The notes below the pieces were generated by a model, which saw only the letters and a program-made list of their open reading frames with translations, was not told the origin of the DNA and searched no databases. Below, one piece after another: positions 16,958-38,034 of a DNA stretch of 52,189 bases (its first letter is position 1; each line of letters begins with the position of its first letter). The position numbers and the translations under genes were made by a program. Origin of the DNA: Methanosalsum natronophilum (GTDB lineage: Archaea > Halobacteriota > Methanosarcinia > Methanosarcinales > Methanosarcinaceae); NCBI RefSeq assembly GCF_024808815.1, contig NZ_JANUCS010000015.1, positions 1 through 52,189 of the forward strand. The letters run 5' to 3'.

Positions 16958-19102
16958 ATGAAATTTAATTCTGAAAAGTTAAAAGAAAAAACTAATATTG
17001 ATTTAAGTTCTGTAAAGATTAAAACTACTGTATATGTAGTTGTAGCTTTGATTGCAATATTTGCTGTTTCTGGTGTTTTGATTATAAATTCTGTTAATGA
17101 AATGCAAACTGAAATGGCATATGATGCTGTAATGGATGAAGCTGAGATATATGCTAATGATATTGATTCTGATTTGAGAGAGTATATGACTGCAGCTAAT
17201 ACCTTGTCAGCAACTCTTTCTCAATATGAGTCTAATGATAGAGATGAAGTTAATAGAATAGTAAGACAAATACTGCTCAATAACGAAAATTTTGACGGTG
17301 TTTATGTTGCTTATGAGCCCAATGCTTTCGATGGGAATGATGAGGCTTTTGTCGATGAAGTGGGCCACGATTCTACAGGTAGATTCATTCCATACTGGTA
17401 TCGTGATGGAAATACAATTGAATTAGAGCCTTTGGTTGATTATGAAATTGAAGATTATTATCAATTGCCTAAACAGTTAGAAAGAGATGTAGTGACTGAA
17501 CCTTATATGTATCAAGGTCAACTCCTATCAAGCTTTGTATCTCCGATAATTGTAAATGGGGAATTTATTGGTATAGCAGGTACTGATGTAAGTTTATTTT
17601 ACCTTGACGAAATGATGGATGATGTAGTACTGTTCGATACGGGTTATGCGTTACTTCTTAGTAATGAAGGGATGATAATAACTCATCCAGAAGATAAGAG
17701 CCTCATGGGAACTCAAAATATAGCTGATTTTGATGACCCAATATTCGATGAAATACAGAGAGATGTAGCAAATGGTATATCTGGACAAGTATCAGGTATC
17801 AGCCCAGTAACAGGTGAAAATGTGGTTTATTCATACAGTACTATAGATACTGGTGAATATGCCGTACTAGCAGTAGTTCCTGAAAATGAAATGTTAGCTG
17901 GTGTCAGTGCATTACAAACACAGATAATAACTATATTCATCATTGCAGTCGGTCTAATGGCGCTATTAAGTTATTTCATAATAGGTTCAATTGCAAATCC
18001 TATGCGTGCAGCTGCCACACGAGCCGAGAACATAGCAAACGGCAACCTTACTGGACAAATTGACAAAAAATTCATTGGTAGAAAAGATGAGGTTGGAATA
18101 CTCGCTACTTCATTTGGAACAATGCTAGAGAATCTCAATCAGTTAGTTTCAGGAATTAAACAAAGTGCAGATGATACTTCTGCAAGGGCACAGGAAATGT
18201 CAGCCACTTCTGAAGAAACCACAGCTTCTGCAAATCAAATCGCAGATACAGTGTCAGAAATTTCAAGGGGAGCACAAACTCAATCAGCTAAAGTAGAAGA
18301 AGTCGCAAGGGCAATGAACGATATGAATGATAGTGTACAATCAGTTGCCGAAAATTCACAAAAAGCTTCTGAAGATGCAGATGATATCAGTTCTAAAATA
18401 CAAGTGATTGGTAACGCTTCACAAGACCTGTTACAGAAAATGAATGGTATAAGAAAGACTTCAGAAAAAAATGCAGCTGTTATAAGTCAATTGGATCAAA
18501 AATCGACTGAGATTGGAAAGATCGTTAATTTGATCACAAACATTGCTGACCAAACCAATCTTTTAGCACTAAATGCAGCGATTGAGGCTGCTAGGGCAGG
18601 AGAACATGGAAGGGGATTTGCAGTTGTTGCAGATGAAGTTAAAAAGCTTGCAGACGAATCTGGTTCAGCAGCAAAACAAATTGAAGAACTCATTACCGAA
18701 ATACAGGATAGTACACATAATGCTGTAGAATCCATGAACGAAAGTAAGTCTGAGATTGAAACTGGTGCCAAATCACTTGACGAAACGGTAGAATCTATAC
18801 AGGCAATCGTTTCAGATGTTAATGAGATATCTAAAATGGTTCAAGAAATCGCAGCTGCTGCACAAGAACAATCTGCATCAATAGAAGAAGTAACAGCTTC
18901 TGTTGAAGAAGTTTCTTCAATTTCAGAGGAATCTGCAGCAAGTACTCAAGAAGCATCTGCTGCAGTAGAGCAACAAACTGCATCTATGCAGGAAATTTCA
19001 AACGCTGCTCAAGAACTCGCTGAAATGGCTGATAAGTTGCAAAGAGATGTATCTTATTTCAAATTGAACTCTGAAGACGGAGAGAATGACAACAATAAAT
19101 GA
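16958..19102 (+). CDS. Methyl-accepting chemotaxis protein with dCache sensor
   Basis: A 714-aa transmembrane chemoreceptor. TM1 is at about 26-47. A large extracellular double-Cache domain (about 50-320, with [27 protein letters not shown] and GIAGTDVSL) binds small ligands such as amino or carboxylic acids. TM2 is at about 328-350, followed by HAMP (350-405) and the long coiled-coil signalling domain. The latter contains the hairpin tip [32 protein letters not shown]. Many Glu/Gln/Ala-rich heptads are candidate methylation sites. It is the first gene of the che operon. Confidence 0.95.
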
Positions 19103-19127
19103 GGTTATTTTAAACATAAAATAACCT
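19102..19127 (+). promoter_or_regulatory. Perfect stem-loop between MCP and cheW
   Basis: A 10-bp perfect stem (AGGTTATTTT, 6-base loop, AAAATAACCT) overlaps the last base of the MCP stop codon. A short T run follows only 7-12 bases later. It could be a partial terminator or an mRNA processing site that sets the receptor to CheW/CheY/CheA ratio. Confidence 0.5.
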
Positions 19128-19151
19128 TATAACCATTTTTTGGTGAAGATT

Positions 19152-19670
19152 ATGGAAGAAAAGACACTCAAAATCGATAGGAAAATGGATGAAGACGATG
19201 ATAATGAAAATGTGTTACAATTAGTCATCTTTCAGTTAGGTGGTGAGGAATTCGCTGTTGATATAATGCAAGTGCAAGAGATAATAAGGATGCCAGAGAC
19301 CACCAGAATACCGCAAGCACCCGAATATGTGAAAGGTGTAATCAACCTGCGTGGAAAAATAATAGTTGTAGTTAGCTTAGATGTAAAGTTCAACATCGAG
19401 GCTAAAGAAGTAGATGAAAATTCAAGGGTGATAGTGGTAGAGGTCGACGATACTATATTAGGTATGGTCGTTGATTCGGTAAGTGAGGTTATCAGATTAC
19501 CTCATTCAAATGTAGAAAATGCACCTGATATCATTACCTCTAAAATTAAGGCCGAATATATTGAAGGTGTTGGTAAATTAGATGAAAGGTTATTAATATT
19601 ACTAGATTTAAAGAAAGTTTTGCAGGAAAGTGAAATGGATCAGATTTCCAATATTAAGAAAAATACATGA
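19152..19670 (+). CDS. cheW: Chemotaxis adaptor CheW
   Basis: Couples receptors to the kinase CheA. The 172-aa protein has an acidic N-terminal extension of about 25 residues, then the CheW SH3-like fold (LVIFQLGGEEFAVDIMQVQEII, the VKGVINLRGKIIVVVSL signature, VDSVSEVIRL, and EYIEGVGKLDERLLILLDL). The ATG at 19152 was chosen because GGTGA lies 5 bases upstream; a TTG at 19140 gives a longer frame without a Shine-Dalgarno. The stop TGA overlaps a start codon of cheY. Confidence 0.95.
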   Translation: MEEKTLKIDRKMDEDDDNENVLQLVIFQLGGEEFAVDIMQVQEIIRMPETTRIPQAPEYVKGVINLRGKIIVVVSLDVKFNIEAKEVDENSRVIVVEVDDTILGMVVDSVSEVIRLPHSNVENAPDIITSKIKAEYIEGVGKLDERLLILLDLKKVLQESEMDQISNIKKNT

Positions 19671-20059
19671 AAAACGATCAGATTCAAGGGACTGATAAAA
19701 ATATGGCAGATATAATGATTGTAGACGACGCGGCATTCATGAGGATGGTTATTAAGGACATTCTTACCAAGAATGGACATAATGTTGTAGCCGAAGCAGG
19801 TGATGGGCTTGATGCAATTGAAAAATACAAAGAAAGTAAACCTGACCTAGTTTTCTTGGACATAGTTATGCCTAACATGGAAGGTACTGATGCATTGAAA
19901 AGTATCATGGAAATCGATGAGAACGCTAAAGTGGTAATGTGTTCATCTATTGGTCAACAATCTGTTGTCACCGAGGCTATCAATAATGGTGCTCAAGATT
20001 TTATTGTGAAACCTTTTGATGCAACTAAAGTATTAGAGGTCATGAACAATGTTTTATGA
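19667..20059 (+). CDS. cheY: Chemotaxis response regulator CheY
   Basis: A single receiver domain phosphorylated by CheA that signals the archaellum motor through CheF. Counted from the internal ATG at 19703, the acidic pocket is Asp8/Asp9, the phosphorylation site is Asp53 in LVFLDIVMPN, and the Ser/Thr and Lys positions are in MCSSIG and FIVKPFD. The ATG at 19667 overlaps the cheW stop (ATGA), suggesting coupled translation, but adds 12 residues unusual for the family. The ATG at 19703 (118 aa) gives the family length and has AAGGG 12 bases upstream. Confidence 0.95.
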   Translation: MKNDQIQGTDKNMADIMIVDDAAFMRMVIKDILTKNGHNVVAEAGDGLDAIEKYKESKPDLVFLDIVMPNMEGTDALKSIMEIDENAKVVMCSSIGQQSVVTEAINNGAQDFIVKPFDATKVLEVMNNVL

Positions 20060-20085
20060 TTATCTACAGGAATGGAGAGTTAAAA

Positions 20086-22089
20086 ATGAGTATGTCTGAA
20101 TATTGTGACATGTTCAAAGCAGAAGCTAACGAACATCTCCAACAACTAAACCACACATTACTTGAATTAGAACAAGATAATTCAAACCTTGAAAATATAA
20201 ACATAATGTTTCGTGCGGCACATACTTTGAAAGGAATGGCTGCAACAATGGGTTACAACAAAATAGCTGAAGTGACCCATGAAATGGAAAATTTAATGGA
20301 TAGTATAAGAAACCAAGAGATTGACATTAATAGTACCATAATAAATGTATTATTTGAATGTTTAGATCAGTTAGAATTTGGTATTGAAAACATTGAAACT
20401 GAATGTGATATGGACATTTCAGCTATCTTATTAAGATTAAATGAAGTAAGTTCAAGTGCTGAAAAGCATGAACATGTTGCTGAGAATGTGACATGTGTAT
20501 CTGAATCAATTGATTTGAAAGAAGATGATATTAAAAAATGCCAGTCCCTCTGTGAAGATAAAGATAGTTCAATATTCAATGTTCAGGTAACCCTTGACGA
20601 AACCTGTCTTTTAAAGACGGCACGTACAGGCTTAGTGCTACGAGAATTAGATAAAATGGGAACTGTTGTGAAAACAGTACCTTCTCAGGAAGATATTGAT
20701 TCTGGAAACATAGATAATGAAATCAATATTGTTTTTGTAACTGCAAACAATGAAAATGTGGTAATTGAAAAGATAAGTAAAGTCTCGGAAATCAGTAATG
20801 TTAAGATAGATCCACTTGACCTTGATAATATTTTAGCTGCTGAAAAAACTGAATCCATGCCAAGTATTCCTTCAACACCCACTTCTACATCCAAATCGAT
20901 GAAGAACAGTATGAATGAAGATAATGTTAAGTCTGTTCAAAGTGTTAGAGTTAGTATTGAACGACTTGATAACCTGATGAATATGGTTGGAGAACTTCTT
21001 ATCAATAAGAGCAGATTAAACCAATTAGCCATTGAGCTTGAAACCAAAAAATTAGATGAAACCCTTGCAAGTCTTGACAGATTAACAAATGATATTCAAG
21101 TAGAAGTCATGGATGCACGAATGGTACAAATTGATCAAGTTTTTAATCGATTTCCACGTATGGTTCGTGACCTTTCAATTGAACAAAAGAAAAAGATCAG
21201 TTTTTTAACCGAAGGTAATGAAATCGAACTTGACAGAACTGTTTTAGATGAGATTGGTGATCCTTTAGTTCATCTATTAAGAAATGCGGTGGATCATGGT
21301 ATAGAAACTCCTGAAGAAAGAATAGCTAAAAATAAAACAGAAACTGGATCTCTTAACTTAAAAGCTTCAAGGTTAAGAAACAATGTCTTGATCGAGCTGC
21401 AAGATGATGGTAGAGGAATTGATCCGGTTAAAATGCGAGATGTAGCTATCAAAAAAGGACTATTTGAACGAGCTCAGGCAAATGATCTTTCAGATAGAGA
21501 AGCAATGTATCTTATTTTCGAACCCGGGTTCAGTGCTGCTGAAGAAGTGACTGATATATCCGGCCGAGGCGTAGGTATGGATGCTGTGAAAAACAAGATA
21601 GAAGATCTTGGAGGATCTGTTGAACTTGAATCTGTAGTAGAACAGGGTACAACGATCAGGTTAAAATTACCATTAACTGTTGCAATCATACAGTCATTGC
21701 TTGTGAATGTAGGTGAAGAAACTTATGCAGTCCCAATAAACAATATTGTACGAGACGAAGTTATAGAGCAAGACGATATCAGATCAATTAAAGGTGAGAA
21801 AGTAGTAAATCTTCGTGGTGAGGTATTGCCTCTTGTGGACCTTCATGACGTACTTAGCGTCCCACATAACAAAGAAAACTATAGAGATAATAACAATCTA
21901 TTAGTCGTAGTAGTAGAAAAAGCAGGTCAACATATAGGTTTAATAGTCGATAAACTTTTAGGACAACAAGAAGTTATTATAAAAACACTTGATAACAAGT
22001 TATTAAAAAACGTAAAAGGATTTTCAGGTGCAACTATTTTAGGTAATGGGAATGTAGCCCTTATCTTAGATGTTCCTACGTTGGTATGA
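20086..22089 (+). CDS. cheA: Chemotaxis histidine kinase CheA
   Basis: A 667-aa kinase that phosphorylates CheY. It has a P1 Hpt domain with phosphoacceptor His46 in AAHTLKGMAAT, then a P2-like CheY-binding region (about 165-265). The P3 dimerisation helices (VSIERLDNLMNMVGELLINKSRL) follow, then a P4 ATPase with LLRNAVDHGIETPEER (N box), DDGRGI and GRGVGMDAVKNKIE. The P5 CheW-like regulatory domain is at the end. The ATG at 20086 has GGAG 8 bases upstream; an ATGA overlap with cheY at 20056 would add 10 residues. It lies 10 bp before cheC. Confidence 0.96.
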   Translation: MSMSEYCDMFKAEANEHLQQLNHTLLELEQDNSNLENINIMFRAAHTLKGMAATMGYNKIAEVTHEMENLMDSIRNQEIDINSTIINVLFECLDQLEFGIENIETECDMDISAILLRLNEVSSSAEKHEHVAENVTCVSESIDLKEDDIKKCQSLCEDKDSSIFNVQVTLDETCLLKTARTGLVLRELDKMGTVVKTVPSQEDIDSGNIDNEINIVFVTANNENVVIEKISKVSEISNVKIDPLDLDNILAAEKTESMPSIPSTPTSTSKSMKNSMNEDNVKSVQSVRVSIERLDNLMNMVGELLINKSRLNQLAIELETKKLDETLASLDRLTNDIQVEVMDARMVQIDQVFNRFPRMVRDLSIEQKKKISFLTEGNEIELDRTVLDEIGDPLVHLLRNAVDHGIETPEERIAKNKTETGSLNLKASRLRNNVLIELQDDGRGIDPVKMRDVAIKKGLFERAQANDLSDREAMYLIFEPGFSAAEEVTDISGRGVGMDAVKNKIEDLGGSVELESVVEQGTTIRLKLPLTVAIIQSLLVNVGEETYAVPINNIVRDEVIEQDDIRSIKGEKVVNLRGEVLPLVDLHDVLSVPHNKENYRDNNNLLVVVVEKAGQHIGLIVDKLLGQQEVIIKTLDNKLLKNVKGFSGATILGNGNVALILDVPTLV

Positions 22090-22099
22090 GGTTTAAAAT

Positions 22100-22717
22100 A
22101 TGGCAGAAATGGATGAAATGACAAAAGGTGCGTTACAAGAAGCAGGGAATATAGGTATGGGACACCTTGCAACCTCGTTATCAAAAATAGTTAAAAGAGA
22201 GGTCAAAATCGATATCCCTGTAGTAGAGATAGTATCATTAGATGATATTTTGAATGAAAGTGAAGGAGACTCGAGAAATAAAATCGTTGCAGGTATACAC
22301 GTTGATATTAAAGGTGATGTTAATGGCGGCATGTTGCTCCTGTTCCCAAAATTCTCTGCACTCTCATTCTCAGATATTTTGACTAAGAAACCAGTTGGTA
22401 CAACTAGCATTTTGGAAGAAATACATATCACAAAATTAGAGAATATGGGTTTCCAACTATGTAGCTCTTATATGAAAGCAATCAATGAATTTATTGGTCT
22501 AGAACTTAAACTTCAAGAGACTTTAATTAAAGTGGATATGGATGGAATTACCGATTTCATTTCAGATGAAATGAAAGGACTGGCAGACGAATTCATAGTT
22601 ATCCGGAACGAATGTTTTGTTCCATCCACCAACTCGAGACATAAATTCAATATGTTGTTTGAACCTGATGCTTCCGATACAATACTAACAGCTGTAATGC
22701 AAAAAATGATGGGGTAA
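22100..22717 (+). CDS. cheC: CheY-P phosphatase CheC
   Basis: A 205-aa CheC family protein that dephosphorylates CheY-P. The first conserved phosphatase motif (MTKGALQEAGNIGMGHLATSL, with Glu and Asn four apart) is at residues 6-26. The second copy (EEIHITKLENMGFQLCSSYMKAI) is degenerate: the Asn of the usual ExxN motif remains but the Gly-Asn-Ile context is altered. CheC normally works with CheD, which is not encoded here. GAGGT of the cheA end serves as its Shine-Dalgarno. Confidence 0.93.
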   Translation: MAEMDEMTKGALQEAGNIGMGHLATSLSKIVKREVKIDIPVVEIVSLDDILNESEGDSRNKIVAGIHVDIKGDVNGGMLLLFPKFSALSFSDILTKKPVGTTSILEEIHITKLENMGFQLCSSYMKAINEFIGLELKLQETLIKVDMDGITDFISDEMKGLADEFIVIRNECFVPSTNSRHKFNMLFEPDASDTILTAVMQKMMG

Positions 22718-22850: not shown

Positions 22851-23090
22851 ATGGCCCCAAAATCGCAAATTGGTGAAGTACGAATCTTACATCGTCAAGG
22901 TAAATGTACAATTATCCAAATTGAAACTGATGAAGAGATAAAGTTATTCACATCATGCGAGATGGGAGATCCTGAGATTGGGTCAAAAGTTTTTATCGAT
23001 AAAGAGTTTGTTGATGGTTTTGAAACTATCCTTGATATGATCCATGGAAATTGTTTAGGATATTCAATTGAGCCAATTAATAAAGATTAA
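22851..23090 (+). CDS. Small hypothetical protein after the che operon
   Basis: A 79-aa beta-rich protein (GEVRILHRQGKCTIIQIETDEEIKLF..., GSKVFIDKEFVDGFETIL). No family was recognised; too short and unlike CheD. A good Shine-Dalgarno (GGAGA) lies 7 bases before the ATG, and a TATA-like region (TATATACTACTAATTATATACC) is at about 22786-22808, so it probably has its own promoter. Confidence 0.65.
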   Translation: MAPKSQIGEVRILHRQGKCTIIQIETDEEIKLFTSCEMGDPEIGSKVFIDKEFVDGFETILDMIHGNCLGYSIEPINKD

Positions 23091-23118
23091 ACAAAAGCAA
23101 AGCTTAAATTATACGAAG

Positions 23119-23598
23119 TTAACCTAGCAAATCATCTAAGTTTCTCTCTTCCTTAACATAGAATTTTATAGTATCAATAAAAAAGTCTTTTTTTATGGCT
23201 TCTCTATAATATAGTAAATAGACAAATAATTCGAGTTCTCTTTGGCGTAGGCTCACTTCCTTTTTAATCTCATTGAAAGATGTAGGTTTTTCTCGAACTA
23301 TATTATATATTGATTCGTACTTTTCTTTTATATAGTCGGGATAATCCGTTATTCTTAGCTTGAAAGTATCATAATCTTTACGAGCTAAGTCTAAGTATAA
23401 TTTCAAACCAAATTCGGTGAGTTCCCATTCTGAATGCTTTGAAGACAATACAGATTCACGTACAATATCGAGATTATTAAGTGTCTCAACTACAGATTTT
23501 GTATTATTCAATGAAATACCAGTTATAATCGATAGTTTTGTGGTTGGTAAATTGTTAAATATGAATAAAGCATCTATAACCTTAAGTCCTTCAATCAT
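23119..23598 (-). CDS. Predicted winged-helix protein of the SMC-like/RdfA-like cluster
   Basis: A 159-aa protein. The N-terminal half looks like a winged helix (LKVIDALFIFNNLPTTKLSIITGISLNNTKSVVETLNNLDIVRE..., then ELTEFGLKLYLDLARKDYD), and a second similar segment may follow (PTSFNEIKKEVSLRQRELELFVYLLYYREA). No specific family was recognised. The ATG at 23596-23598 has GGAGATG 8 bases upstream; the longer frame to 23646 would overlap the gene before it. It is the third gene of the block 26379-23119. Confidence 0.7.
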   Translation of the reverse strand: MIEGLKVIDALFIFNNLPTTKLSIITGISLNNTKSVVETLNNLDIVRESVLSSKHSEWELTEFGLKLYLDLARKDYDTFKLRITDYPDYIKEKYESIYNIVREKPTSFNEIKKEVSLRQRELELFVYLLYYREAIKKDFFIDTIKFYVKEERNLDDLLG

Positions 23599-23642
23599 TG
23601 TACGTACATCTCCTGATAAATTTACTTTATTTAGAATTAATA

Positions 23643-24374
23643 TCAATCAGAATTTTCAGAATTGTTATTCTGGTTTAATTCTCCCTGACAATCATGCCTT
23701 GTTTCAAAAAGGTCATCTTGAGTGATTTTTTTATGACATTTTTCACATCTGAAAATAAGCTCTGCATTTATATATGAGGGTACAGCTTTTCGTTTGGCTG
23801 CACGCTGTAGTGCTTTATTGGACACTTTCAACGCAAAATCTAATCCATCCTTTAAATTAACAAGATATTTATTTTTATCATTATTGGTTTCATGTTTTAT
23901 TTGCATGCAGTTTTCAAGATGTTTTTTAACAAAATAAGTTGTGATCAAGTAATTGGACCAATGAAATACATTAATACCATATTGTTGTTCTATAGCTGCA
24001 CCTTTAGAATATATCTCATATGTTAGCTTTTCATTTATTTTAAAACCATTAACTAAAACATATTTACGAAAGAGATCTACGTCAAAAACCATTGTTTGTT
24101 CTGGATACTCTTGTTTGAACAAGTTTGATAGAATATTATTATTCAAGTAATCAACAATATTAGAATAAGACATTGATATCCCGGATTCGGTATTCTCAAA
24201 ACTTTGCCTTAATATATATTCCGTATTCTTCTGATCAAGTAAACCGTTATTGATCAAGTTGCATAGAATACATTCAGTTAAATTATACCTTCTCTCTTTA
24301 GGACTTGGTATTACCTCATACTTATCAAAGTCAGAGGTTTGTGTCCTGTATCCAAGCTGTTCGAATATGTCCAT
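23643..24374 (-). CDS. Zinc-finger protein resembling haloarchaeal rod-determining factor RdfA
   Basis: A 243-aa protein. The N-terminal part has a helical segment (RRYNLTECI, then ISMSYSNIVDYLNNNILSNLF). A middle segment has a Gly-Ile turn followed by ITTYFVKKHLENCM. The C-terminal part has a helix (LDFALKVSNKALQRAAKR) and a zinc-binding motif CEKCHKKI with a late HDC. From memory, haloarchaeal RdfA proteins share the same order: a short YGL motif, a SLR-LA-FN helix, a GVD...HLRDCL region, and a terminal CEDCG...CDC finger. They sit beside the same SMC-like protein. The similarity is in layout rather than high identity, so the call is tentative. It follows the SMC-like gene on the same strand. 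Confidence 0.5.
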   Translation of the reverse strand: MDIFEQLGYRTQTSDFDKYEVIPSPKERRYNLTECILCNLINNGLLDQKNTEYILRQSFENTESGISMSYSNIVDYLNNNILSNLFKQEYPEQTMVFDVDLFRKYVLVNGFKINEKLTYEIYSKGAAIEQQYGINVFHWSNYLITTYFVKKHLENCMQIKHETNNDKNKYLVNLKDGLDFALKVSNKALQRAAKRKAVPSYINAELIFRCEKCHKKITQDDLFETRHDCQGELNQNNNSENSD

Positions 24375-24465
24375 ATTATCTTACTACAAAGAAATATATA
24401 ATGAATTAAATGTTTTATGATACTGTTATTCTAACAATAGGTAAGAATAACAATTACTAATGATA

Positions 24466-26379
24466 TTATACATCACTATCTAATACTTGAAAGTGGGCAG
24501 ATACATTAAGGTTACCTTCTGGAAGTTTAGTAAGGATAATCGATTCTACCTTTTGTTGGAGATAATCCATGAGTTTTGTAAGTCTATCAACATCAAGATA
24601 CGTAAGTTCATCGAGGATTAGTACAGGGAACTTTTCATTTACCTTATATGCAAGATATCCACTTAACATTACTATTAAACCAACAACTTCTAGTTCTGAA
24701 GTACTGAGTGTCTGTAAAGAATACCTATCAGGTTTTTTCTCTTCCTCGCGTACCACTACTAAGTTATATTTGTCATTCAACACTTCTAATCTCACATTCT
24801 TGATATTCTCAAAACCAATTATATCTTTGATATGATTTATATTCTCATTAAAAGTGGTACGAACTGCTGACTGGAGATACTCTTTTTCTTTAACAACTTC
24901 TTTCTTTTTATCTTGTAAAGAGTTAAGCTTTGATTTTATGTTGTTTAGTTGATCTTGTTTGGTAGCAAGAGCCTCTAACATAGATTCGGTTTCATCCATT
25001 TTTTCTTTTAATATTCCATGCTTTGCTTTTAGTTCAATATAATTATTATTTAACCCTGTTTTTTTATCATTATGTTTTTTACTAACAGAGTCAAGTTTGT
25101 CTTTGAGTATAGTTAGATCCTGTTGATATTGTTCAAGTTTCTCTTTTTCAGTAACTAGATCAGATTCAAGTTCATTCACTTGTAAATATGTGCGATTTAG
25201 CTCAGACCTGTATTTATTATACTTTGATTGCTGTGATTCAACATCATCCAATTCTTGTTGAACCTGGTAAATTTGGTTTTTTATTTTATTATTCGTTTCA
25301 ATAAGGTCACTTGATATTGAATGCAAGTGTTGAAGATGTTTTTTTAAATTCTCATCATCGGTTCTCGAACCACATGTAGGACATGTCTTTTTAGATTTAC
25401 CTAGAAGTCCAGTTTCCAATAATTTCTCATTCATTTGTTCATTATACTGATCAATAATAGTATGGTCTGAATGTAGTGTTTTCTCAAGGTTGTCAATATA
25501 TACGTTTACAGTATCTATTTTTTCCGTATTCTCACTTAATTTAGATTTGAGCATGGAATGTTGAGATTTTAGTTCCATGACCTTTTCAGGATTAAACTCT
25601 TTTAAGTTCTCTAATTCGTTTTCCTTATTCCTTACCTCTTGATTAAGGTTCTTTAACTGGAACTCTTTATTCTCAATACTAGATTTTAATTTTGCTATTG
25701 ATTGTACTAGATTAGTATAAGATGATTTTAAGTCCATATATTGTTGATGAGACTCATTATCTTGAACATCATCGTCCTTTGAACTCATTTCAATCAGATG
25801 TATCTCTTTCTCCACTTGTTTTATTTGAGAATTTAATTCTCCTTTTTGATTGATCAATTCGTCTTTCCTTTTTAGCTCCGATTGTAATGTTTTCATTTCT
25901 TGTCGATATTTTTGGAGTGATACATTATATTCATGTTCCCTAGCCTCAAGTTCATCCAAATTAGTATGTTCAATTATTGCGTTTCTTATATCTCCACCAT
26001 TCCTTATAGTAGTTAAAAGTGTGTTTGTATTGTTTCCAATAGCAAACCGGGTGATTAAGTGACCCATATTTTCATCAAATAAGTTGTCTCCTTTAAAATT
26101 AAGAGTGCGATTATCAATATATTCAAGTGATTTTACATACTCTATCCCATCACCATCAATTATCTTTACATAGCCTTTCTTATTGCCACTCTTTAAGAAA
26201 TAGTTCTTATCCTTCACTAAACCATTTCTAATCATAAGTACCTGGAATGCACGCAGAAATGATGTTTTCCCAGTAGCATTAGGAGCCTCTATTACATTTA
26301 GACCTTTCTTAAAGTCAAGTTCATGTGACTCAATTCCCCCAATATTCTTGACTTGGATTTTAAAATTTTTTAGATCCAT
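24466..26379 (-). CDS. Archaea-specific SMC/Rad50-related ATPase
   Basis: A 637-aa ABC-type ATPase with Walker A at residues 32-40 (APNATGKTS). Two long coiled coils surround a Rad50-type zinc hook, Cys333-Pro-Thr-Cys336 (CPTCG). The signature motif is a degenerate LSTSE (about residue 555), followed by Walker B (VLILDEL, about 588). It is too short and has no Mre11 partner, so it is not Rad50. It matches the layout of the archaea-specific SMC-related proteins best known in haloarchaea. The ATG lacks a strong Shine-Dalgarno. It is the first gene of the set with the RdfA-like and winged-helix genes. Confidence 0.82.
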   Translation of the reverse strand: MDLKNFKIQVKNIGGIESHELDFKKGLNVIEAPNATGKTSFLRAFQVLMIRNGLVKDKNYFLKSGNKKGYVKIIDGDGIEYVKSLEYIDNRTLNFKGDNLFDENMGHLITRFAIGNNTNTLLTTIRNGGDIRNAIIEHTNLDELEAREHEYNVSLQKYRQEMKTLQSELKRKDELINQKGELNSQIKQVEKEIHLIEMSSKDDDVQDNESHQQYMDLKSSYTNLVQSIAKLKSSIENKEFQLKNLNQEVRNKENELENLKEFNPEKVMELKSQHSMLKSKLSENTEKIDTVNVYIDNLEKTLHSDHTIIDQYNEQMNEKLLETGLLGKSKKTCPTCGSRTDDENLKKHLQHLHSISSDLIETNNKIKNQIYQVQQELDDVESQQSKYNKYRSELNRTYLQVNELESDLVTEKEKLEQYQQDLTILKDKLDSVSKKHNDKKTGLNNNYIELKAKHGILKEKMDETESMLEALATKQDQLNNIKSKLNSLQDKKKEVVKEKEYLQSAVRTTFNENINHIKDIIGFENIKNVRLEVLNDKYNLVVVREEEKKPDRYSLQTLSTSELEVVGLIVMLSGYLAYKVNEKFPVLILDELTYLDVDRLTKLMDYLQQKVESIILTKLPEGNLNVSAHFQVLDSDV

Positions 26380-26635
26380 TTATCTTCAGTTTCTCCTAAT
26401 AATTTGAAACAATATACTATATCATTTGATTATTATTAATATAAAAGATTAATGAATTAATAATACTAACAGTTTAAGTTACCTGTTTTCTAAAATTAAG
26501 TTTTAACTAGCTTCAGCTAATTTAGAATGTTGAAAGTAATTTTTTACTTTTTTAAATGCGTGCAATGATTTAAATATAATACGTGCATGTTCAACACAAT
26601 ATTTGTTTATATTTCAAATCCTGGAGCAAAGTGTT

Positions 26636-26854
26636 ATGGGTTCAAGAGTAGTAAAAATGTCAGATTCCCAAGATCAAGGTAATGGCGTTAAGTGTATTGA
26701 TGAAAATGTCACTGAATTTGAACCTACTTTGGTAAAACAAGTACGTAAATCTGGTGATATCTATGTTGGCAGAAAACATTCTGGTAAAACTGCATATATC
26801 TATTTCAAGAGAACTGAAGTCAATGATAACTTAAAAGGAGATGAGAGTGAATGA
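26636..26854 (+). CDS. Small protein with AbrB/DUF2080-like C-terminus
   Basis: A 72-aa protein. The first half is polar; the second half (LVKQVRKSGDIYVGRKHSGKTAYIYFKR) resembles DUF2080/SpoVT-AbrB-type swapped-hairpin proteins (pattern GNSG-IYVPK-GK). The ATG at 26636 has GGAG 9 bases upstream; an upstream ATG at 26603 adds 11 hydrophobic residues with no Shine-Dalgarno. Its stop overlaps the start of the KaiC-like gene (ATGA), so the two are translated together. Confidence 0.6.
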   Translation: MGSRVVKMSDSQDQGNGVKCIDENVTEFEPTLVKQVRKSGDIYVGRKHSGKTAYIYFKRTEVNDNLKGDESE

Positions 26855-27612
26855 GAATTCCTTCAGGTATTGATGGACTGGATGAACTAATCGAAGGGGG
26901 ACTCTTATCCAATCGAGTCTATCTCATCTCAGGATCACCTGGGGCTGGAAAGACCACTTTTGGATTACAGTTCTTGGTACAGGGTGCAAAGATGAATGAA
27001 ATAGGTTTATACATAACTTTACTTGACAGCCCACATAACATTATTGAAGATTTTTCAAGTTATTCATTTGACCTTAATGCATACCTTCAACAAAACAAGA
27101 TCCTATTCGCGGATGTCGGACCGAGATTAGATTATGGGTATATGGATGAATTAAATAGTATTTTTAGTGTTGGCAATGGTAGTAATAATTTCGAAACTGA
27201 AAGCGATGCACCTTCACCAGCATCTGTCTTTAAAGAAATTGAAACTTACGTGACGCAATATAATGTTACAAGGTTGGTCATAGATTCACTTTCTGCTATG
27301 AGATTCACTAAAAGCGATCGGATTGTAGAAGAAAAAGAAATTAGTAGATTTATTAGACAACTGAAACGGTTGGGTTGCACGACTGTGCTTTTATCTGAAT
27401 TAAGTGGCCAAGATAGTTATAAAACTGAACAATATGCTGCTCATGGTGTCATTATATTGCACAGCTTTCTTAGAGATGATGAGCTTGTACGTGCATTTCA
27501 AATAGTCAAGATGAGAGGTACTAGACATCCTTGTACATTAATGGAACTCAAATTCAGTGATAATGGTCTGAAAATACATCATAATAAAATCTCTAGTAGA
27601 AAAACTAATTAG
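26851..27612 (+). CDS. KaiC/RAD55-family RecA-like ATPase
   Basis: A single KaiC domain of 253 aa: Walker A GSPGAGKTT (about 27-35), Walker B LVIDSLSAM, and the C-terminal strand pair KMRGTRHPCTLMELKFSDNGL. Archaeal single-domain KaiC proteins are signalling ATPases. It is not ArlH, which lacks this C-terminal motif and has a different Walker A context. It overlaps the small AbrB-like gene by 4 bp. Its place between chemotaxis and archaellin genes suggests a role in taxis or archaellum regulation, but that is inference. Confidence 0.9.
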   Translation: MRIPSGIDGLDELIEGGLLSNRVYLISGSPGAGKTTFGLQFLVQGAKMNEIGLYITLLDSPHNIIEDFSSYSFDLNAYLQQNKILFADVGPRLDYGYMDELNSIFSVGNGSNNFETESDAPSPASVFKEIETYVTQYNVTRLVIDSLSAMRFTKSDRIVEEKEISRFIRQLKRLGCTTVLLSELSGQDSYKTEQYAAHGVIILHSFLRDDELVRAFQIVKMRGTRHPCTLMELKFSDNGLKIHHNKISSRKTN

Positions 27613-27694
27613 TATTCAAAAACGTTATAGTCGTATTTACAATAAATACTGTACTTTTTTAAAAAGGTAATTCTTGGAAATATAATGTATCTTA

Positions 27695-28069
27695 TTAACA
27701 GTTAGATAATATTAATGCAAAAAATGATTTGTACGGTGAGTATACTCTAACTTTCATCTCAGTTTCAAACAAATAACATTTTCGATCAAAAACAAAACTA
27801 CGATTGTCATTCAATGCTACTGTTCCAAAAAAATCAATCCAATCAAATTCTATATCTCTAAAAAAACAATTTAGTTTCGAGAATGATATGCTTCTCAAAA
27901 AATTATTATCAATACCTAACAGTTCTGAAAATTGGGAGTTAGCATAAATTAGTTCGGCATCTATGGGTTCACCTAAATCATTGACAACAAGTCTATTAAA
28001 TGACGTTGCGATATTGATATTATCAAGAATAGATTTATAGATAAAACTTTCATTCAATTCAGTTTGCAT
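27695..28069 (-). CDS. Stand-alone PAS domain protein
   Basis: A 124-aa protein that is one PAS domain. It aligns over its length with the first PAS domain of the protein at 7047-8975 (shared pattern: LV-DxxGxPIDxE, IYANSQFSELLGI, and EFDWIDFFG versus DFDWIEYFG). No output domain is present. It converges on the KaiC-like gene, 82 bp apart. It may be an adaptor that feeds a signal into the neighbouring taxis genes. No Shine-Dalgarno is visible before the ATG. Confidence 0.7.
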   Translation of the reverse strand: MQTELNESFIYKSILDNINIATSFNRLVVNDLGEPIDAELIYANSQFSELLGIDNNFLRSISFSKLNCFFRDIEFDWIDFFGTVALNDNRSFVFDRKCYLFETEMKVRVYSPYKSFFALILSNC

Positions 28070-29250: not shown

Positions 29251-30048
29251 TTAATTTTTCTTTTCTCTTCTATCTTTTTTTAGAGAAAGAATTGCTAATC
29301 CCATTAAGATGATGAAGATCAATCCTAATATAGGTAAAAAGTATGGATGTTCATAAAATGCTTTTTTGTTGACATTCACTTGTGTAGCGAATTCGAACGT
29401 AGTCTTGCCATCGATTACTGTAGAACTAATACCACTTCCACCAGTTAGCAAAACCCTTTCATTCTCAGTAGAGGTTTCAGAATCGTCTAATCCATGATAA
29501 CTTATGAGTTCAAAACCTTCTGGTAGAATTATCTGTTTTTCTTCTATTGAAGGATGGCCTTGAATCCAAATGTGGTTCTCACCTGTCGAAATTGAGTCCA
29601 CAAATTCAAACTGTATATCTGTAGTAACTAGGACATTATCATCAGTTTCATTGATATTACCTTCAATTTCACCAAGGTTCATTTCAATTGAAGTTAGATT
29701 TAGTTCAGTTTCACCATCATTTATAATAATATATTCCTTAAATTCATCTTCTTTGATATTGATATATGTTTCAATAAACTGATTAATCTCAGAACTATTA
29801 ATAATACCATCATTGTTCATATCAATCAAATTTTTGAGCTCAATAGCATAAGTTCCAGAGTATTCTTCAATTATCTTAAATTTGATATGATATTCTTGGA
29901 TATCTATATAGTTAGAATAAGTTGCCATTGAAGTTTCGAGTTCCATTTCATCCATATCGACATGGTTTACATCTGCAGTTACCGGTACTATTAATAACGT
30001 GACTAATAAAATGGTAATACTTATCAATAAAATCTTTTTCTGAATCAT
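29251..30048 (-). CDS. Secreted membrane-anchored protein with one EF-hand-like loop
   Basis: A 265-aa protein with an N-terminal signal peptide (about 1-26, ending VTADVN), a beta-rich ectodomain, an EF-hand-type calcium loop DMNNDGIINSSE near residues 75-86, and a C-terminal TM helix (FLPILGLIFIILMGLAILSL) followed by a basic tail. The ATG at 30046-30048 was preferred over an upstream GTG. It sits between the archaellin at 30098 and the lipoprotein gene, probably in one operon. Function unknown; an archaellum-envelope contact role is inferred only from position. Confidence 0.75.
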   Translation of the reverse strand: MIQKKILLISITILLVTLLIVPVTADVNHVDMDEMELETSMATYSNYIDIQEYHIKFKIIEEYSGTYAIELKNLIDMNNDGIINSSEINQFIETYINIKEDEFKEYIIINDGETELNLTSIEMNLGEIEGNINETDDNVLVTTDIQFEFVDSISTGENHIWIQGHPSIEEKQIILPEGFELISYHGLDDSETSTENERVLLTGGSGISSTVIDGKTTFEFATQVNVNKKAFYEHPYFLPILGLIFIILMGLAILSLKKDRREKKN

Positions 30049-30097
30049 GACTAACACAAATTACAGTTTTTTTTGTTTATTAAATTTATGGAGATAT

Positions 30098-30886
30098 TTA
30101 AGGGTATAATCCAACAATCATATTAACCCCATAAGCAGAAGGTGTATAAAATCTTGCAGAGACATCTGGCCCATATTCTGAAGAGATAACAATACTCATA
30201 CGCGTCCTTGGGTTTAATTTAAGATCCGAACTTTTCAATTCAAGATCATCATAAGAATACAATGATGTATATCCAGAAGCATCCCTAGATACGGTTGCTA
30301 CATATAATGAGATTAAGTCACCTTTGCTCATTAAAGGATCTGATTGCGAGAATGAACCATCTTCATCTCTGTGTGGATTTGCAGTGAAGAATAATTTTGA
30401 ATTAGGTCCATCATTAGTAGTTCCATTGAGTAATAGTTCTAAGTTAGTTGAATGGTCAGTATCAAATCCTTCCATTGTGGTACCAAAAATTCTTTCATTA
30501 CCAGCATAGACTAAAGTATTTGTTCGACTACCATCAGAAACTGTGATTATTGTCTGGCTTATATCAATTTCACTGGTACCTACATGTAAGCCCGCGTTTA
30601 TCTTTATCATATCAATTGTATCTGATGGCCCACCTTGACCCCCAGTATCATTTGCACGGTACCCTTCAATGTTGCGAATCAAAATATTTGAAGATACTTC
30701 TTGGGTAGCTTGTCTGCCTGTTTGAGCTGCTTGTTCCTGCAAAATACCGGATGTTTGAATCATTACAGCTGCAGCTATGGAAGCAATTAAAATCATTGCT
30801 ATAAAAATTATTAATGTCCCAATACCTATTTGAGCATCAGTATTTTTCTTAAACCCTAAGCTACATTTTCTGGTCAAACCATCCAT
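30098..30886 (-). CDS. arlB: Archaellin (archaellum filament protein)
   Basis: Filament subunit. The class III signal peptide is basic ([18 protein letters not shown]), processed before [13 protein letters not shown] by an ArlK/PibD-type peptidase, and followed by the hydrophobic assembly helix. The C-terminus has the archaellin end [17 protein letters not shown]. The ATG at 30884-30886 was chosen to give a normal signal peptide; the open frame continues to 30991 with unrelated sequence. This is the most diverged of the short archaellins here and has no clear terminator after it, so it may be joined with the two secreted-protein genes downstream. Confidence 0.92.
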
Positions 30887-31061
30887 CCTAGTAAAAATAT
30901 ATGATTTATATTGGGTTGGATAACATATAAAGTTTATGAATAGCCTATAGCTATGAAGTCTTATAGACTGAGAATAAAAGAAAATATTCAATTTAAAAAT
31001 AAATGAAACAAAAATAGAATTTTTACTTTAAGTAAATAGAACAAAATAAAAATAGAGAGAA

Positions 31062-31080
31062 GTTCTCAATGAATGAGAAC
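31062..31080 (-). terminator. Terminator after archaellin gene 31083-31841
   Basis: A 7-bp stem (GTTCTCA/TGAGAAC, 5-base loop) lies just after the stop codon and is followed on the minus strand by a T-rich run. Confidence 0.65.
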
Positions 31081-31082
31081 TC

Positions 31083-31841
31083 TTATGGATATAGCTTGAC
31101 TATATCAGTTACACCATAAGTAGATGGGGTAACAAATGTTGCTTGTGAGATAGCTCCGGCTTCAGGTGTCATTACAATACCAACTTCTGTACGTGGATCG
31201 ATTGTCAATCCGGTGTTAGTTAAAGTACCATCACTTGAGTCTGCTCCATCAATTTCAATTGAATAGCCTTCTCCTGATCCTTCTTCTGATGCACTTGCAA
31301 TATAAAGATTGACAAGATCACCAGTATTCATAACAGGATTTTCCTGATTAAAGGATTCATCTTCATCACGAATATCATTAGCAGCAAATTCTGTTGTGGC
31401 TGCATCATCATCTGTCATTATTCTTTCTAGATTATCTGTCCAACTGTCATCATCTTTAACATGTTCTTCATCAATATAAGTCAATGTATTTGTTACACTA
31501 CCATCAGTAATGGTTACAACCAATTGATTGAGATCGACTGGTGAACTACCTGCTTGAAGACCTAGTTGTAATCTAAGTAGATCAACAGTATCGGATAAAC
31601 CATCATCAGTATGTGATGCTCTTACACCTTCGATACTTTTAATATCAATATTCGATGATACTTCTTGTGTTGCTTCTGAACCTGTCTGTTGTGCTCTCTG
31701 TTGTAACACTCCTGAAGTCTGGATAAGTACTGATGCAGCGACTGCTGCTACTAAGACCATAGCGATAAATATAATCAGAGTACCAATACCCACCTGACCT
31801 TTATTGTTCTTTCTAAAATTCAATTTTCTGTTTGCTTTCAT
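31083..31841 (-). CDS. arlB: Archaellin
   Basis: A 252-aa filament protein. The short basic leader MKANRKLNFRKNNKG is cut before [20 protein letters not shown]. The assembly helix continues to [21 protein letters not shown]. The C-terminal conserved motif is FVTPSTYGVTDIVKLYP. The central domain is variable and acidic. The ATG at 31839-31841 has GGAG 7 bases upstream; the frame is open to 31928 but the extension is not conserved. It is very close to the archaellin at 31957 (recent duplication). Confidence 0.95.
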   Translation of the reverse strand: MKANRKLNFRKNNKGQVGIGTLIIFIAMVLVAAVAASVLIQTSGVLQQRAQQTGSEATQEVSSNIDIKSIEGVRASHTDDGLSDTVDLLRLQLGLQAGSSPVDLNQLVVTITDGSVTNTLTYIDEEHVKDDDSWTDNLERIMTDDDAATTEFAANDIRDEDESFNQENPVMNTGDLVNLYIASASEEGSGEGYSIEIDGADSSDGTLTNTGLTIDPRTEVGIVMTPEAGAISQATFVTPSTYGVTDIVKLYP

Positions 31842-31922
31842 AAAAAAACTCCATATTCTATTTGATATAAAGAAAATTATCAGGTTTGAATTATATATTT
31901 TTGGTATATGGGATAAAAAAAG

Positions 31923-31945
31923 ATTCATATTATTAAAATATGAAT
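31923..31945 (-). terminator. Terminator after archaellin gene 31957-32709
   Basis: A 9-bp stem (ATTCATATT/AATATGAAT, 5-base loop) 11 bases after the stop codon, followed on the minus strand by a run of seven T. This archaellin therefore probably ends its own transcript. Confidence 0.7.
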
Positions 31946-31956
31946 CAAAACTTTGT

Positions 31957-32709
31957 TTATGGATATAGACTTACTATATCAGTTACACCATATGTAGATG
32001 GTGTAATAAAAGATGCTTGTGAAATAGCTCCTGCTTCAGGTGTCATTACAATACCAACTTCTGTACGTGGGTCTAATGTTAAACCAGATTCACTGTTTTC
32101 AGTAGGGAAATCCTCTCCATCAATATTTATTTGATGGTTTTCAGTATTTGCTTCTTCGGATGCTGTTGATATGTACATATTAACGAGATCACCAGTGTTC
32201 ATAACAGGATTTTCCTGACTGAAAGATTCATCTTCATCACGTATTTCTCTTACTGCAAAAAGGTCTGTAGCACCATCTGTGGTTTGTAGTCTTTCTAAAT
32301 TTCCATTTTCTCCACCAAATTCACTTGCTGGATCATTACCATCAGTATATGTCAGTGTGTTTGTACTACTTCCATCAGTAATTGTTACAACTAGTTGATT
32401 AAGATCTACTGGTGAACTGCCTGATTGGAGACCAAGTTGTAATCTTAACATATCTACAGTGTTGGTTAATTCATCACCGTTTGCTGCTCTGATACCTTCA
32501 ATATTTTTAATATCAATATTTGATGATACTTCCTGGGTTGCTTCCGAACCTGTCTGTTGTGCTCTTTGTTGTAGAACACCAGAGGTTTGAATCAATACAG
32601 CTGCAGCAACCGCTGCTACAAGAACCATTGCAATGAAGATAATAAGTGTCCCAATACCTACCTGGGCACTAGTATCTTCACTGAACCGTACATTCTTATT
32701 TGCTTTCAT
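31957..32709 (-). CDS. arlB: Archaellin
   Basis: A 250-aa filament protein. The leader MKANKNVRFSEDTSA is cut before [20 protein letters not shown]. The variable acidic middle (about 90-200) differs from the neighbour at 31083 while both ends are nearly identical. It ends FITPSTYGVTDIVSLYP. The upstream region carries a TATA run and the conserved archaellin promoter element at 32776-32806, so this gene has its own promoter. The Shine-Dalgarno is GGAAG. Confidence 0.95.
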   Translation of the reverse strand: MKANKNVRFSEDTSAQVGIGTLIIFIAMVLVAAVAAAVLIQTSGVLQQRAQQTGSEATQEVSSNIDIKNIEGIRAANGDELTNTVDMLRLQLGLQSGSSPVDLNQLVVTITDGSSTNTLTYTDGNDPASEFGGENGNLERLQTTDGATDLFAVREIRDEDESFSQENPVMNTGDLVNMYISTASEEANTENHQINIDGEDFPTENSESGLTLDPRTEVGIVMTPEAGAISQASFITPSTYGVTDIVSLYP

Positions 32710-32772
32710 AGTACAATCTTCCTATAATTTTATACAATAATAAATCTTATGATACATACACTTATTCTTTAA

Positions 32773-32958
32773 TCATATATATATACTTTGGTTTGATTTA
32801 TTTAACGAGTTTCTTATGGAAATGCAATGATCATGTTTAACTAAAGTATTTATTCCATAAGTCGATGGTGTAAAAAGTGGAGCCTCCTTAGAACATAAAG
32901 CTTCTGGGGGCTTAGGGACATTCTCTTCAATGAATCTTACCTTCTTACTTGTTCTCAT
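32773..32958 (-). pseudogene. Archaellin with its centre deleted
   Basis: The N-terminus MRTSKKVRFIEENV equals the archaellin leader (compare MKANKNVRFSEDTS). It runs straight into PPEALCSKEAPLFTPSTYG, which equals the archaellin C-terminus (TPEAGAISQASFITPSTYG). The signal cleavage site, the assembly helix and the whole central domain (about 200 codons) are lost. The normal stop is gone, so the frame reads on into the next promoter for about 17 residues. It follows the archaellin at 32996 by 37 bp on the same transcript and cannot make a filament subunit. Confidence 0.85.
32776..32806 (-). promoter_or_regulatory. Archaellin promoter: TATA run and conserved GTTTGA element
   Basis: The plus strand shows an ATATATATATA run (32776-32785) followed by TTTGGTTTGATTTATTTAAC (32787-32806). 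On the minus strand this is GTTAAATAAATCAAACC directly before the TATA box of the archaellin at 32709. Near-identical elements lie at 33811-33830 and 46402-46421. The element partly overlaps the out-of-context tail of the deleted-archaellin frame. Confidence 0.75.
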
Positions 32959-32995
32959 AGAATCTTACCGTACAGTATAAAAATAATAGAACTTT

Positions 32996-33739
32996 TCAAG
33001 GATAGAGTCTTGTTACAGGATCCACTTCATAACGTGAAGGTGTAATAAAGCTTATGGTTGAAGGTGTACCTGTTTCATATGCAAATATGATATCCACCGG
33101 TGTTCTTGTATCCAGCTGCAAGTTAGAATTTTTAACCGTTGATAAGGCATCATCATAATTAGTTAAATTAATACCGGAATCAGAGCTTGAGGTGCCAATA
33201 TAGATATATATTATATCACCTGAACTTATAACTGGATCTTTCAACTGAAATGAACCATCATCATCACGGATAGGATTAGCAACAAAATATGTTGTGATAT
33301 TTTCCCTGTTTTTTAACAGATACTCCAAGTTTTTAGTAAAATTATCTTCATGTGAGTCATTGATATATTCTAAAGTGTTTGTAGTACTACCATCTGAAAC
33401 TGTTAGAATTACCTGCCCCAAATCAAGTGAAGAACTACCAGGTCTAAGACTAGCTTGAATCTTTAACAAATCATATGTTTTGGAATAACCATCTTCATTT
33501 TCTACATCTAAATTGCCTCGTATACCATCAATGTGCATTATATTCAAATTAGAAGATACTTCTTGGGTAACTTCGGAACCCGTTTGTTGTGCTCTTTGTT
33601 GTAATACACCGGATGTTTGAATTAGGACAGCTGCAGCAACCGCTGCAACTAGAACCATAGCAATAAATACGATAAGTGTCCCAATACCAATCTGGGCACT
33701 AGTATCTTCATTGAAACGCAGTTTATTATTTGCTTTCAT
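32996..33739 (-). CDS. arlB: Archaellin
   Basis: A 247-aa filament protein with leader MKANNKLRFNEDTSA, cleavage before [20 protein letters not shown], and C-terminus FITPSRYEVDPVTRLYP. The C-terminal TPS(T)YG motif is altered to TPSRYE, unlike its paralogues. The central domain has several N-x-S/T sequons (NDS, NFT, NIT, NLT) that may be glycosylated. GGAGAT lies 7-8 bases before the ATG. Its promoter element is at 33801-33830. It is the first gene of the short-archaellin block. Confidence 0.94.
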   Translation of the reverse strand: MKANNKLRFNEDTSAQIGIGTLIVFIAMVLVAAVAAAVLIQTSGVLQQRAQQTGSEVTQEVSSNLNIMHIDGIRGNLDVENEDGYSKTYDLLKIQASLRPGSSSLDLGQVILTVSDGSTTNTLEYINDSHEDNFTKNLEYLLKNRENITTYFVANPIRDDDGSFQLKDPVISSGDIIYIYIGTSSSDSGINLTNYDDALSTVKNSNLQLDTRTPVDIIFAYETGTPSTISFITPSRYEVDPVTRLYP

Positions 33740-33800
33740 AGAATAAAATCTCCATCTACAGGTGATATTGTTTATAGATGAAATGTATTTTCCACTTACT

Positions 33801-33830
33801 ATATAAGAACTATGGTTTGATTAATTTAAC
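33801..33830 (-). promoter_or_regulatory. Archaellin promoter: TATA box and conserved GTTTGA element
   Basis: The TATA-like ATATAAG (33801-33807) is followed on the plus strand by TATGGTTTGATTAATTTAAC (33811-33830). Both lie upstream of the archaellin at 33739 with a leader of about 35-40 bases. The same element is found at 32787-32806 and 46402-46421. Confidence 0.8.
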
Positions 33831-33970
33831 AGCCCAAGAAAGAATTACTAAAGTTTATAAGACATAAAGTTGCTTTATTCAGATATAAGTGCATTGTGAA
33901 TAGATTGTGATTAGTTTCTTAGAAGTTGTTATCGTATATCATATATATTTGTAATCATAAGAGGGTAAAA

Positions 33971-34765
33971 ATGACATCAGGTCTATTATTAAACGCAGTG
34001 ATTTGTTTTGCAATATCGATTTCTGCTTTGACATTAACATGGCTACTAGTCAAGAATTCGGCTGATTATGATGCTAAAGCAAAACCTGCCTTATGGGCAC
34101 TCATTTCTTTCTGGGTACTTGTAGGGTTCATATATATCCCAACTACTTTAAGAATGATTGCAGCATATCAAGGAAATACATTATTTGATTTAATTTTCTA
34201 TCATTTAGCTTCAATTTTTTTCGCTTTTGTAAGTGTACCTATAATATTTTTTATCGTGTATATCGTAACAGGGAACAAAAAGGTTACATTCATAGTTTCC
34301 TTTTTTTTCACTATTGTTGGTATAATATATCTGTATATTTTGAGCACCTATGGTGTAGTAGGACCTGTAGTGCTGGATTGGAGTTCTTTAATAACAGTGA
34401 ACAGTGATTTTGCAATTCATCTATACTTAGCTCTGCTTTTCGTAATTCCCACTGCAATGATATTAGGCTTATTTTTCCTAATGTTAATACAAAGAATTAA
34501 ACTGGGTATATTATACAAAAAAGCTTTACCACTAGTAGCCATCTCGTTTGTTCTCGATTTTATCTTAATTGACTTTATTGTCATGATAGATCCGATGCAG
34601 CTCTTTGCACGCACGTTTATACTTATAGGTATTATTTTAGCATTTCTTGCATATTTCCCACCAGAAGTATTGAAAGAGGAAAAGTTTGATTATGAAGATA
34701 TAGATCTCGAAATTGAGTTAGAGAGTGAAGTTAATGGGTCATTGGGGGACATTAATGAAAAATGA
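33971..34765 (+). CDS. Seven-TM membrane protein
   Basis: A 264-aa protein with about seven hydrophobic segments (roughly 6-26, 40-62, 70-95, 105-127, 150-180, 190-215, 220-238) and a highly acidic C-terminal tail (EDIDLEIELESEV). I do not recognise the family. The ATG at 33971 follows GAGGG at a good distance; the longer frame from 33926 adds unrelated residues. It is divergent from the archaellin at 33739 and overlaps the next gene by 11 bp. It may be an archaellum-island membrane component, by position only. Confidence 0.75.
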   Translation: MTSGLLLNAVICFAISISALTLTWLLVKNSADYDAKAKPALWALISFWVLVGFIYIPTTLRMIAAYQGNTLFDLIFYHLASIFFAFVSVPIIFFIVYIVTGNKKVTFIVSFFFTIVGIIYLYILSTYGVVGPVVLDWSSLITVNSDFAIHLYLALLFVIPTAMILGLFFLMLIQRIKLGILYKKALPLVAISFVLDFILIDFIVMIDPMQLFARTFILIGIILAFLAYFPPEVLKEEKFDYEDIDLEIELESEVNGSLGDINEK

Positions 34766-38019: not shown

Positions 38020-38034
38020 ATTAAATACTCCAAT

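Follow-up and report, generated by a model that had tools for sequence, protein, structure and literature searches.

A putative methanosarcinal relative of the haloarchaeal Sph–RdfA pair with a third, tandem winged-helix protein

Contig NZ_JANUCS010000015.1 of Methanosalsum natronophilum (52,189 nucleotides, analysed over its whole length and referred to below as the window) carries three adjacent genes which, as judged by sequence comparison, are a methanosarcinal relative of the haloarchaeal Sph–RdfA pair with an extra winged-helix protein. The pair of archaea-specific SMC-related protein (ASRP, also Sph or coalescin) and RdfA was already known, and the methanogen trio is new: in the literature that our search covered, with most subscription papers and bioRxiv preprints outside it, there was no report of RdfA in methanogens or of a winged-helix ASRP partner. 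We lean towards viewing the trio as the methanosarcinal version of Sph–RdfA with a third subunit, which would form a DNA-organising complex connected with a switch in motility or cell state, a function proposed by analogy with Haloferax genetics and from family membership. The three genes are as follows.

24466–26379, minus strand: ASRP, 637 amino acids (NCBIfam NF045487, 379.4 bits)
23643–24374, minus strand: probable RdfA homologue, 243 amino acids, mostly helical (PF21811, 22.0 bits; aligned with 29 relatives; structure modelled)
23119–23646, minus strand: predicted tandem winged-helix protein, 175 amino acids from a TTG start (two winged helices in an AlphaFold2 model)

As an initial sequence-only reading of this DNA had stated, these reading frames follow each other closely on one strand. 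They run in the order ASRP, RdfA, winged helix, with a gap of 91 bp between the first two and a 4-bp overlap between the last two. An alternative ATG at 23598 in the winged-helix frame, giving about 159 amino acids, fits the start of the Methanohalobium relative better than the TTG and is the likely start.

A search of 237 genomes of the class at E 1e-40 found ASRP in seven, and in every one of these it is accompanied at the same locus by RdfA and the winged-helix gene, so that the three-gene neighbourhood is conserved. Six genomes keep the order ASRP–RdfA–winged helix, and one (G151) has RdfA–ASRP–winged helix. The carriers include Methanosarcina sp. UBA10923, Methanosarcinaceae archaea E21 and UBA9310, Candidatus Methanoperedens nzgw24, Methanohalobium evestigatum (on plasmid pMETEV01) and Methanomethylovorans hollandica (on plasmid pMETHO01). 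An eighth locus, on a 3.2-kb contig from the same genus as G151, has a split ASRP preceding the winged-helix gene, RdfA not being on the contig. At E 0.001 a profile of the winged-helix protein has matches in 125 of 236 genomes; eight of these matches are full-length and reach at least 77 bits, the others staying at or below 38 bits, and all eight adjoin an ASRP. The winged-helix partner is confined to Methanosarcinales-type genomes as far as searched, and none was detected in 26 haloarchaeal loci, hand-picked with wide flanks from a larger ASRP list and not drawn at random. RdfA lies beside or near ASRP in 23 of these 26, among which no third conserved gene beyond RdfA was found; a cluster with IclR-type regulators spans ten, a raw count without background comparison that mixes in antisense reading frames. 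Pairwise identities of the three methanogen genes correlate (r 0.96–0.99 over 21 pairs; 0.83–0.97 over 15 pairs with a near-duplicate dropped), and these parallel identities fit shared descent. That the genes are only linked on mobile DNA, co-inherited and acting separately, is very unlikely in our estimation: the altered order in G151 and the varying neighbours would suit such linkage, but between genera the trio has persisted at about 16–45% identity, its members diverging in parallel and their reading frames often overlapping. As to other replicons, 128 plasmid records contain ASRP matches, some at several places, the listed ones being nearly all haloarchaeal. None of 39 stretches of viral contigs that matched our patterns is a relative.

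The ATPase exceeds the curated NF045487 cut-off of 300 bits (E 3.3e-113) and is the single copy above that cut-off in its genome, which also has a canonical smc-scpA-scpB operon (labels read from sequence). The zinc-hook SMC-like ATPase of the sequence-only reading is thus borne out, and the residues listed below are invariant in all seven methanosarcinal ASRPs.

26260–26286, minus strand: Walker A, residues 32–40, APNATGKTS (N34, A35, G37, K38, T39 and S40 invariant)
25372–25383, minus strand: zinc hook CPTC with C333 and C336 (C333, P334 and C336 invariant)
24694–24708, minus strand: ABC-type signature LSTSE (LSxxE), residues 558–562 (L558, S559 and E562 invariant)
24607–24624, minus strand: Walker B VLILDE, residues 586–591 (D590 and E591 invariant)

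In a tree of 42 sequences, which keeps all submitted ASRPs, leaves out the split reading frames of the G156 ASRP and of locus L099, and is flagged for long branches and uneven composition, 26 haloarchaeal and seven methanosarcinal proteins lie on one side of a branch with support 100/99 and nine others lie opposite. The methanosarcinal set holds together at 97/92. Three methanogen ASRPs had already been grouped with the Sph clade by Yoshinaga et al. 2022 (PMC9389158), and the excerpts of that paper on which we draw make no mention of RdfA or a third gene. As a separate observation, the tree contains a second ASRP branch with its own conserved operon (L079, 6978–12270; L080, L081, L083, L084, L085, L097 and L098), in the order of a 263–305-amino-acid protein, an AAA+ ATPase, a small protein (261 amino acids in L079) and then ASRP. 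The AAA+ gene, present in eight of ten loci examined and missing from L082 and L099, matches PF00004 in the two copies tested and is TRIP13/IetA-like in PADLOC; a PAPS-reductase-type gene adjoins the operon in L079–L081 (BrxP/SspD-like in L079), as does a histone gene in L083.

By its sequence relationships the 243-amino-acid protein is a divergent RdfA homologue, which we do not call a member of PF21811. We assign it so because its orthologues pass PF21811, because a methanogen-only profile finds haloarchaeal RdfA, and because N78, C210, C213 and C229 are common to both groups. Thus, among class genomes other than the window's own, ASRP and a PF21811 match (E ≤ 0.001) occur in the same six, five of the counterparts scoring over the cut-off and the sixth 25.3 bits, and the Methanohalobium copy is named 'rod-determining factor RdfA' by NCBI. 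A profile built from the seven methanogen proteins alone found one protein per locus in 23 of the 26 haloarchaeal loci, 22 within 213 bp of ASRP and one 1.6 kb away. N78 is common to all 30 aligned rows, methanosarcinal and haloarchaeal, and is present in the window protein, as are the following candidate zinc ligands.

24261–24272, minus strand: CxxC (C35, C38), possible zinc ligands (invariant in the seven methanosarcinal rows)
23907–23921, minus strand: HxxxC (H152, C156), possible zinc ligands (invariant in the seven methanosarcinal rows)
23688–23747, minus strand: C-terminal zinc-ribbon-like cysteines C210, C213 and C229 (each in 27 of 30 aligned rows, haloarchaeal ones included)

The profile similarity to RdfA by which the sequence-only reading proposed to check itself is therefore present, though clear only via the orthologues. 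The protein is predicted by AlphaFold2 to be helical and to end in a zinc-ribbon-like part, in a weak model (predicted local distance difference test, pLDDT, 72.4; predicted template-modelling score, pTM, 0.55). We also considered RdfA as a zinc-stabilised helix–turn–helix, with CxxC...HxxxC around a predicted short-helix pair, an idea taken from the sequence that was confirmed by no tool result and was set aside.

For the third protein, a winged-helix-like nature and the role of an added, presumably DNA-binding member had been claimed beforehand, and of this the tandem winged-helix fold is supported by family matches of relatives, by profile hits and by the model. The window protein itself passes no Pfam cut-off; its relatives match HTH_45 and TrmB over theirs, and an AlphaFold2 model from five sequences (pLDDT 84.0, pTM 0.77) predicts two winged helices.

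23365–23607, minus strand: predicted winged helix 1, residues 14–94, MarR-like (profile hit 3nrv_A, E 2.3e-7; Z about 11–12.6 to MarR and AspA domains)
23155–23337, minus strand: predicted winged helix 2, residues 104–164, weakly ArsR-like (3jth_A, E 0.032; 5znx_A, E 0.033; profile positions 94–159)

VIA-align of the model covers mainly domain 1, where the Z scores listed belong to MarR proteins and to AspA, which binds plasmid centromeres. Full-length Foldseek matches, of which none reaches E 0.001, include ScpB, RPC62, TFIIIC and ESCRT-II chains, with ScpB at ranks 5, 13, 15 and 35 (E 4e-3 to 2.1e-2, query template-modelling score 0.27–0.30) among other tandem winged-helix proteins. Homology to ScpB found no support in hhalign against the ScpB group of the genome itself (probability 1.8%), nor did homology of RdfA to the kleisin ScpA (0.5% against ScpA at the level of its own genus), both with family-level alignments of 12 rows and an effective sequence number (Neff) of 2.1–2.7, which are thin and of weak power. 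We thus describe the third protein, from its predicted structure, as a tandem winged helix of no named family with a KITE-like architecture and without evidence of KITE ancestry, for which a KITE-like role is possible. Taken to its conclusion, this would make the trio a minimal three-subunit SMC machine parallel to SMC–kleisin–KITE, in which RdfA bridges and the winged helix plays the KITE part, haloarchaea keeping a two-subunit version that switches motile and sessile states via chromosome organisation; we hold that extension to be improbable.

In the reading we favour, that of a DNA-organising complex with a third subunit, ASRP would dimerise via its zinc hook and use ATP to clamp and organise DNA, as its family and motifs suggest. 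RdfA would be its constant partner, a partnership supported by conserved adjacency, and this small helical protein, whose C-terminus resembles a zinc ribbon, may couple the ATPase to its site of action. The predicted winged-helix protein could give DNA-site selectivity or act as an accessory clamp subunit. As with Sph3 and RdfA in Haloferax, the output would be a switch of cell state that involves motility, buoyancy and surface organelles. Since we take the methanogen carriers to be irregular cocci, a motile or organelle state is more likely to be the conserved output than rod shape.

The Haloferax genetics behind this analogy are cited here from excerpts of the respective papers. Deletion of either rdfA or sph3 in H. 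volcanii, the one species in which RdfA is known to be required for rods and motility, leaves cells as disks only and non-motile, with no growth defect, and 42 of 54 RdfA genes adjoin an SMC-like gene (PMC10869688); sph3 and rdfA share the CsmR regulon with genes for the archaellum and chemotaxis (PMC13286277, 2026). Reports differ on the sph3 deletion, which is rod-only in PMC13286277 and PMC10570808 versus disk-only, for rdfA and sph3 alike, in the original PMC10869688. A phenotype in cell shape would also be expected of a cytoskeletal scaffold, with ASRP forming coiled-coil filaments at the envelope together with RdfA and the winged-helix protein merely regulating the operon. The authors of PMC10869688 indeed propose a cytoskeleton-like role for Sph3, and the MarR-like fold of winged helix 1 is common among single-gene regulators. 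We nevertheless regard a scaffold as rather unlikely, on the grounds that the seven ASRPs all keep an invariant Walker A, signature, Walker B and zinc hook, as for a DNA-clamping ATPase, and that in each of the eight loci the distance from the end of RdfA or ASRP to the start of the winged-helix gene is at most 14 bp, if the two do not overlap, a tight coupling which an autoregulator might show but does not require.

In the window the trio sits between cheC and archaellum genes.

16958–22717, plus strand: chemotaxis genes MCP, CheW, CheY, CheA and CheC (CheC by PF04509, 35.0 bits; the others read from sequence, with orthologues in the congener G006)
26851–27612, plus strand: KaiC-family ATPase, divergent from ASRP (PF06745, E 2.2e-49; a second copy on contig C7 at 58% identity)
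29251–46325, no single strand given: archaellum genes (archaellins, arlC/D/E) and unnamed neighbours (PF04659 at 36371–36634 and 39913–40182; archaellins read from sequence)

The claim that the module lies next to motility genes stood for the window and for one Methanoperedens-type contig, and did not carry over to two loci by gas-vesicle genes and two on plasmids; for this reason the module cannot be called a fixed motility cassette. The winged-helix gene of G156 faces a convergent arlD/E-type gene, the module has gas-vesicle genes next to it in G041 and G184 (GvpL/F, GvpK and Gas_vesicle over their cut-offs, scored on the G041 copies), and in G151 a type IV pilin gene follows it. Archaellum or gas-vesicle neighbours occur in four of eight loci by raw count.

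Several of our results weigh against the favoured reading. The Methanosarcina-type genomes G041 and G184 are close relatives, so that the gas-vesicle cases count as one; the two plasmid-borne modules belong to both of the two complete genomes that carry it; and archaellum, chemotaxis or gas-vesicle genes were found in none of the 26 haloarchaeal loci, within the flanks fetched and with the queries used. Congener G006 has an archaellum and chemotaxis locus and no ASRP, and therefore the module is not needed for having an archaellum locus. As to RdfA itself, the window protein (E 1.5e-4) does not reach the PF21811 gathering cut-off of 27 bits, so that the RdfA-like label of the sequence-only reading stands on the orthologues and falls short for the window protein alone; a six-frame PF21811 search of the window's own genome at E 0.001 gave no match; and the RdfA model has no usable match among solved folds (Foldseek best E 0.78; VIA best Z 3.8).

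The plasmid locations in both complete carrier genomes bear moreover on a role in plasmid or mobile-element maintenance (partition, copy cohesion) or in anti-plasmid or phage defence, with occasional moves to chromosomes. So do the element of HerA, T2SSE-type ATPase and topoisomerase genes common to G014 and G037 around the module, the very patchy distribution (7/237) and the plasmid records with ASRP matches. The likeness of winged helix 1 to AspA (Z 11.9) and of ASRP to PADLOC LmuB (E 9.5e-21) would fit too, but these matches are unspecific, standing among many MarR-fold and coiled-coil rows. Neither RdfA nor the winged-helix protein has a match to a PADLOC family or to a nuclease domain. 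The window contig carries RNA-polymerase and ribosomal-protein genes (read from sequence), and the Haloferax deletions alter shape and motility with no growth defect (PMC10869688, in excerpt); altogether we consider maintenance or defence unlikely.

Some further observations concern the neighbourhood. The chemotaxis and archaellum genes are one locus in G006 (C1:590800-631566), and in the window's genome they alternate, in complementary fashion, between contig C1 (G000:C1:17115-31884) and window positions 14364–46325, the contig C1 part keeping the same flanking genes as in G006 and CheY being on both. Such a split suggests a duplication or a relocation after which the two places lost genes reciprocally. 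In the G006 locus we see no clear counterpart of the stretch 22851–28069, which holds the module. We asked whether the KaiC-family neighbour corresponds to CirA, the KaiC-like regulator of Haloferax, and rejected this, the neighbour's close homologues lying at another conserved locus and the window copy being a paralogue. An AAA_22 ATPase gene followed by a gene for 137–177 amino acids (L075:12315-14156, L074:10463-11971 and L202:27430-28955) adjoins the module in two Methanosarcina-type genomes and lies about 10 kb from it on pMETEV01, the Methanohalobium plasmid on which an archaellin-like gene (L230:18303-19244) also occurs, some 70 kb away from the module.

The ASRP–RdfA pair thus extends beyond the haloarchaea, and archaellum, gas-vesicle and plasmid genes are found in its company. 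A methanogen version whose third protein can be assigned a fold suggests that the system acts on DNA, and the trio offers a testable way into the question of how cell shape and motility in Haloferax come to depend on an SMC-like ATPase and RdfA. Among known systems, the module resembles Lamassu and Wadjet defence in combining an SMC-like ATPase with small partner genes, and differs in having no effector or nuclease gene: the Lamassu effector LmuA and LmuC were not found, and neither partner carries a Pfam effector domain. With SMC–ScpA–ScpB (SMC–kleisin–KITE) it shares an SMC-like ATPase and two small partners, one of them a predicted tandem winged helix; unlike that complex, its ATPase has a zinc hook and its partners showed no profile similarity to ScpA and ScpB in the thin alignments compared. 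ASRP family and zinc hook are shared with coalescin ClsN of Sulfolobus, for which the excerpts of PMC9389158 describe no RdfA link, and the window's genome has the canonical smc-scpA-scpB, whereas Sulfolobus is without SMC (PMC9389158). Like Sph3–RdfA of Haloferax volcanii (HVO_2175/HVO_2174) and Sph1 and Sph2 of Halobacterium, its ASRP falls on the same side of the tree, and as in the Haloferax pair it lies beside an RdfA-family protein with conserved N and C-terminal cysteines. Unlike that pair, the methanogen module has RdfA downstream of ASRP in six of seven loci, versus upstream in 16 of 23 haloarchaeal ones, counts archaellum, chemotaxis and gas-vesicle genes among its neighbours, and includes a third gene, for the predicted tandem winged-helix protein.

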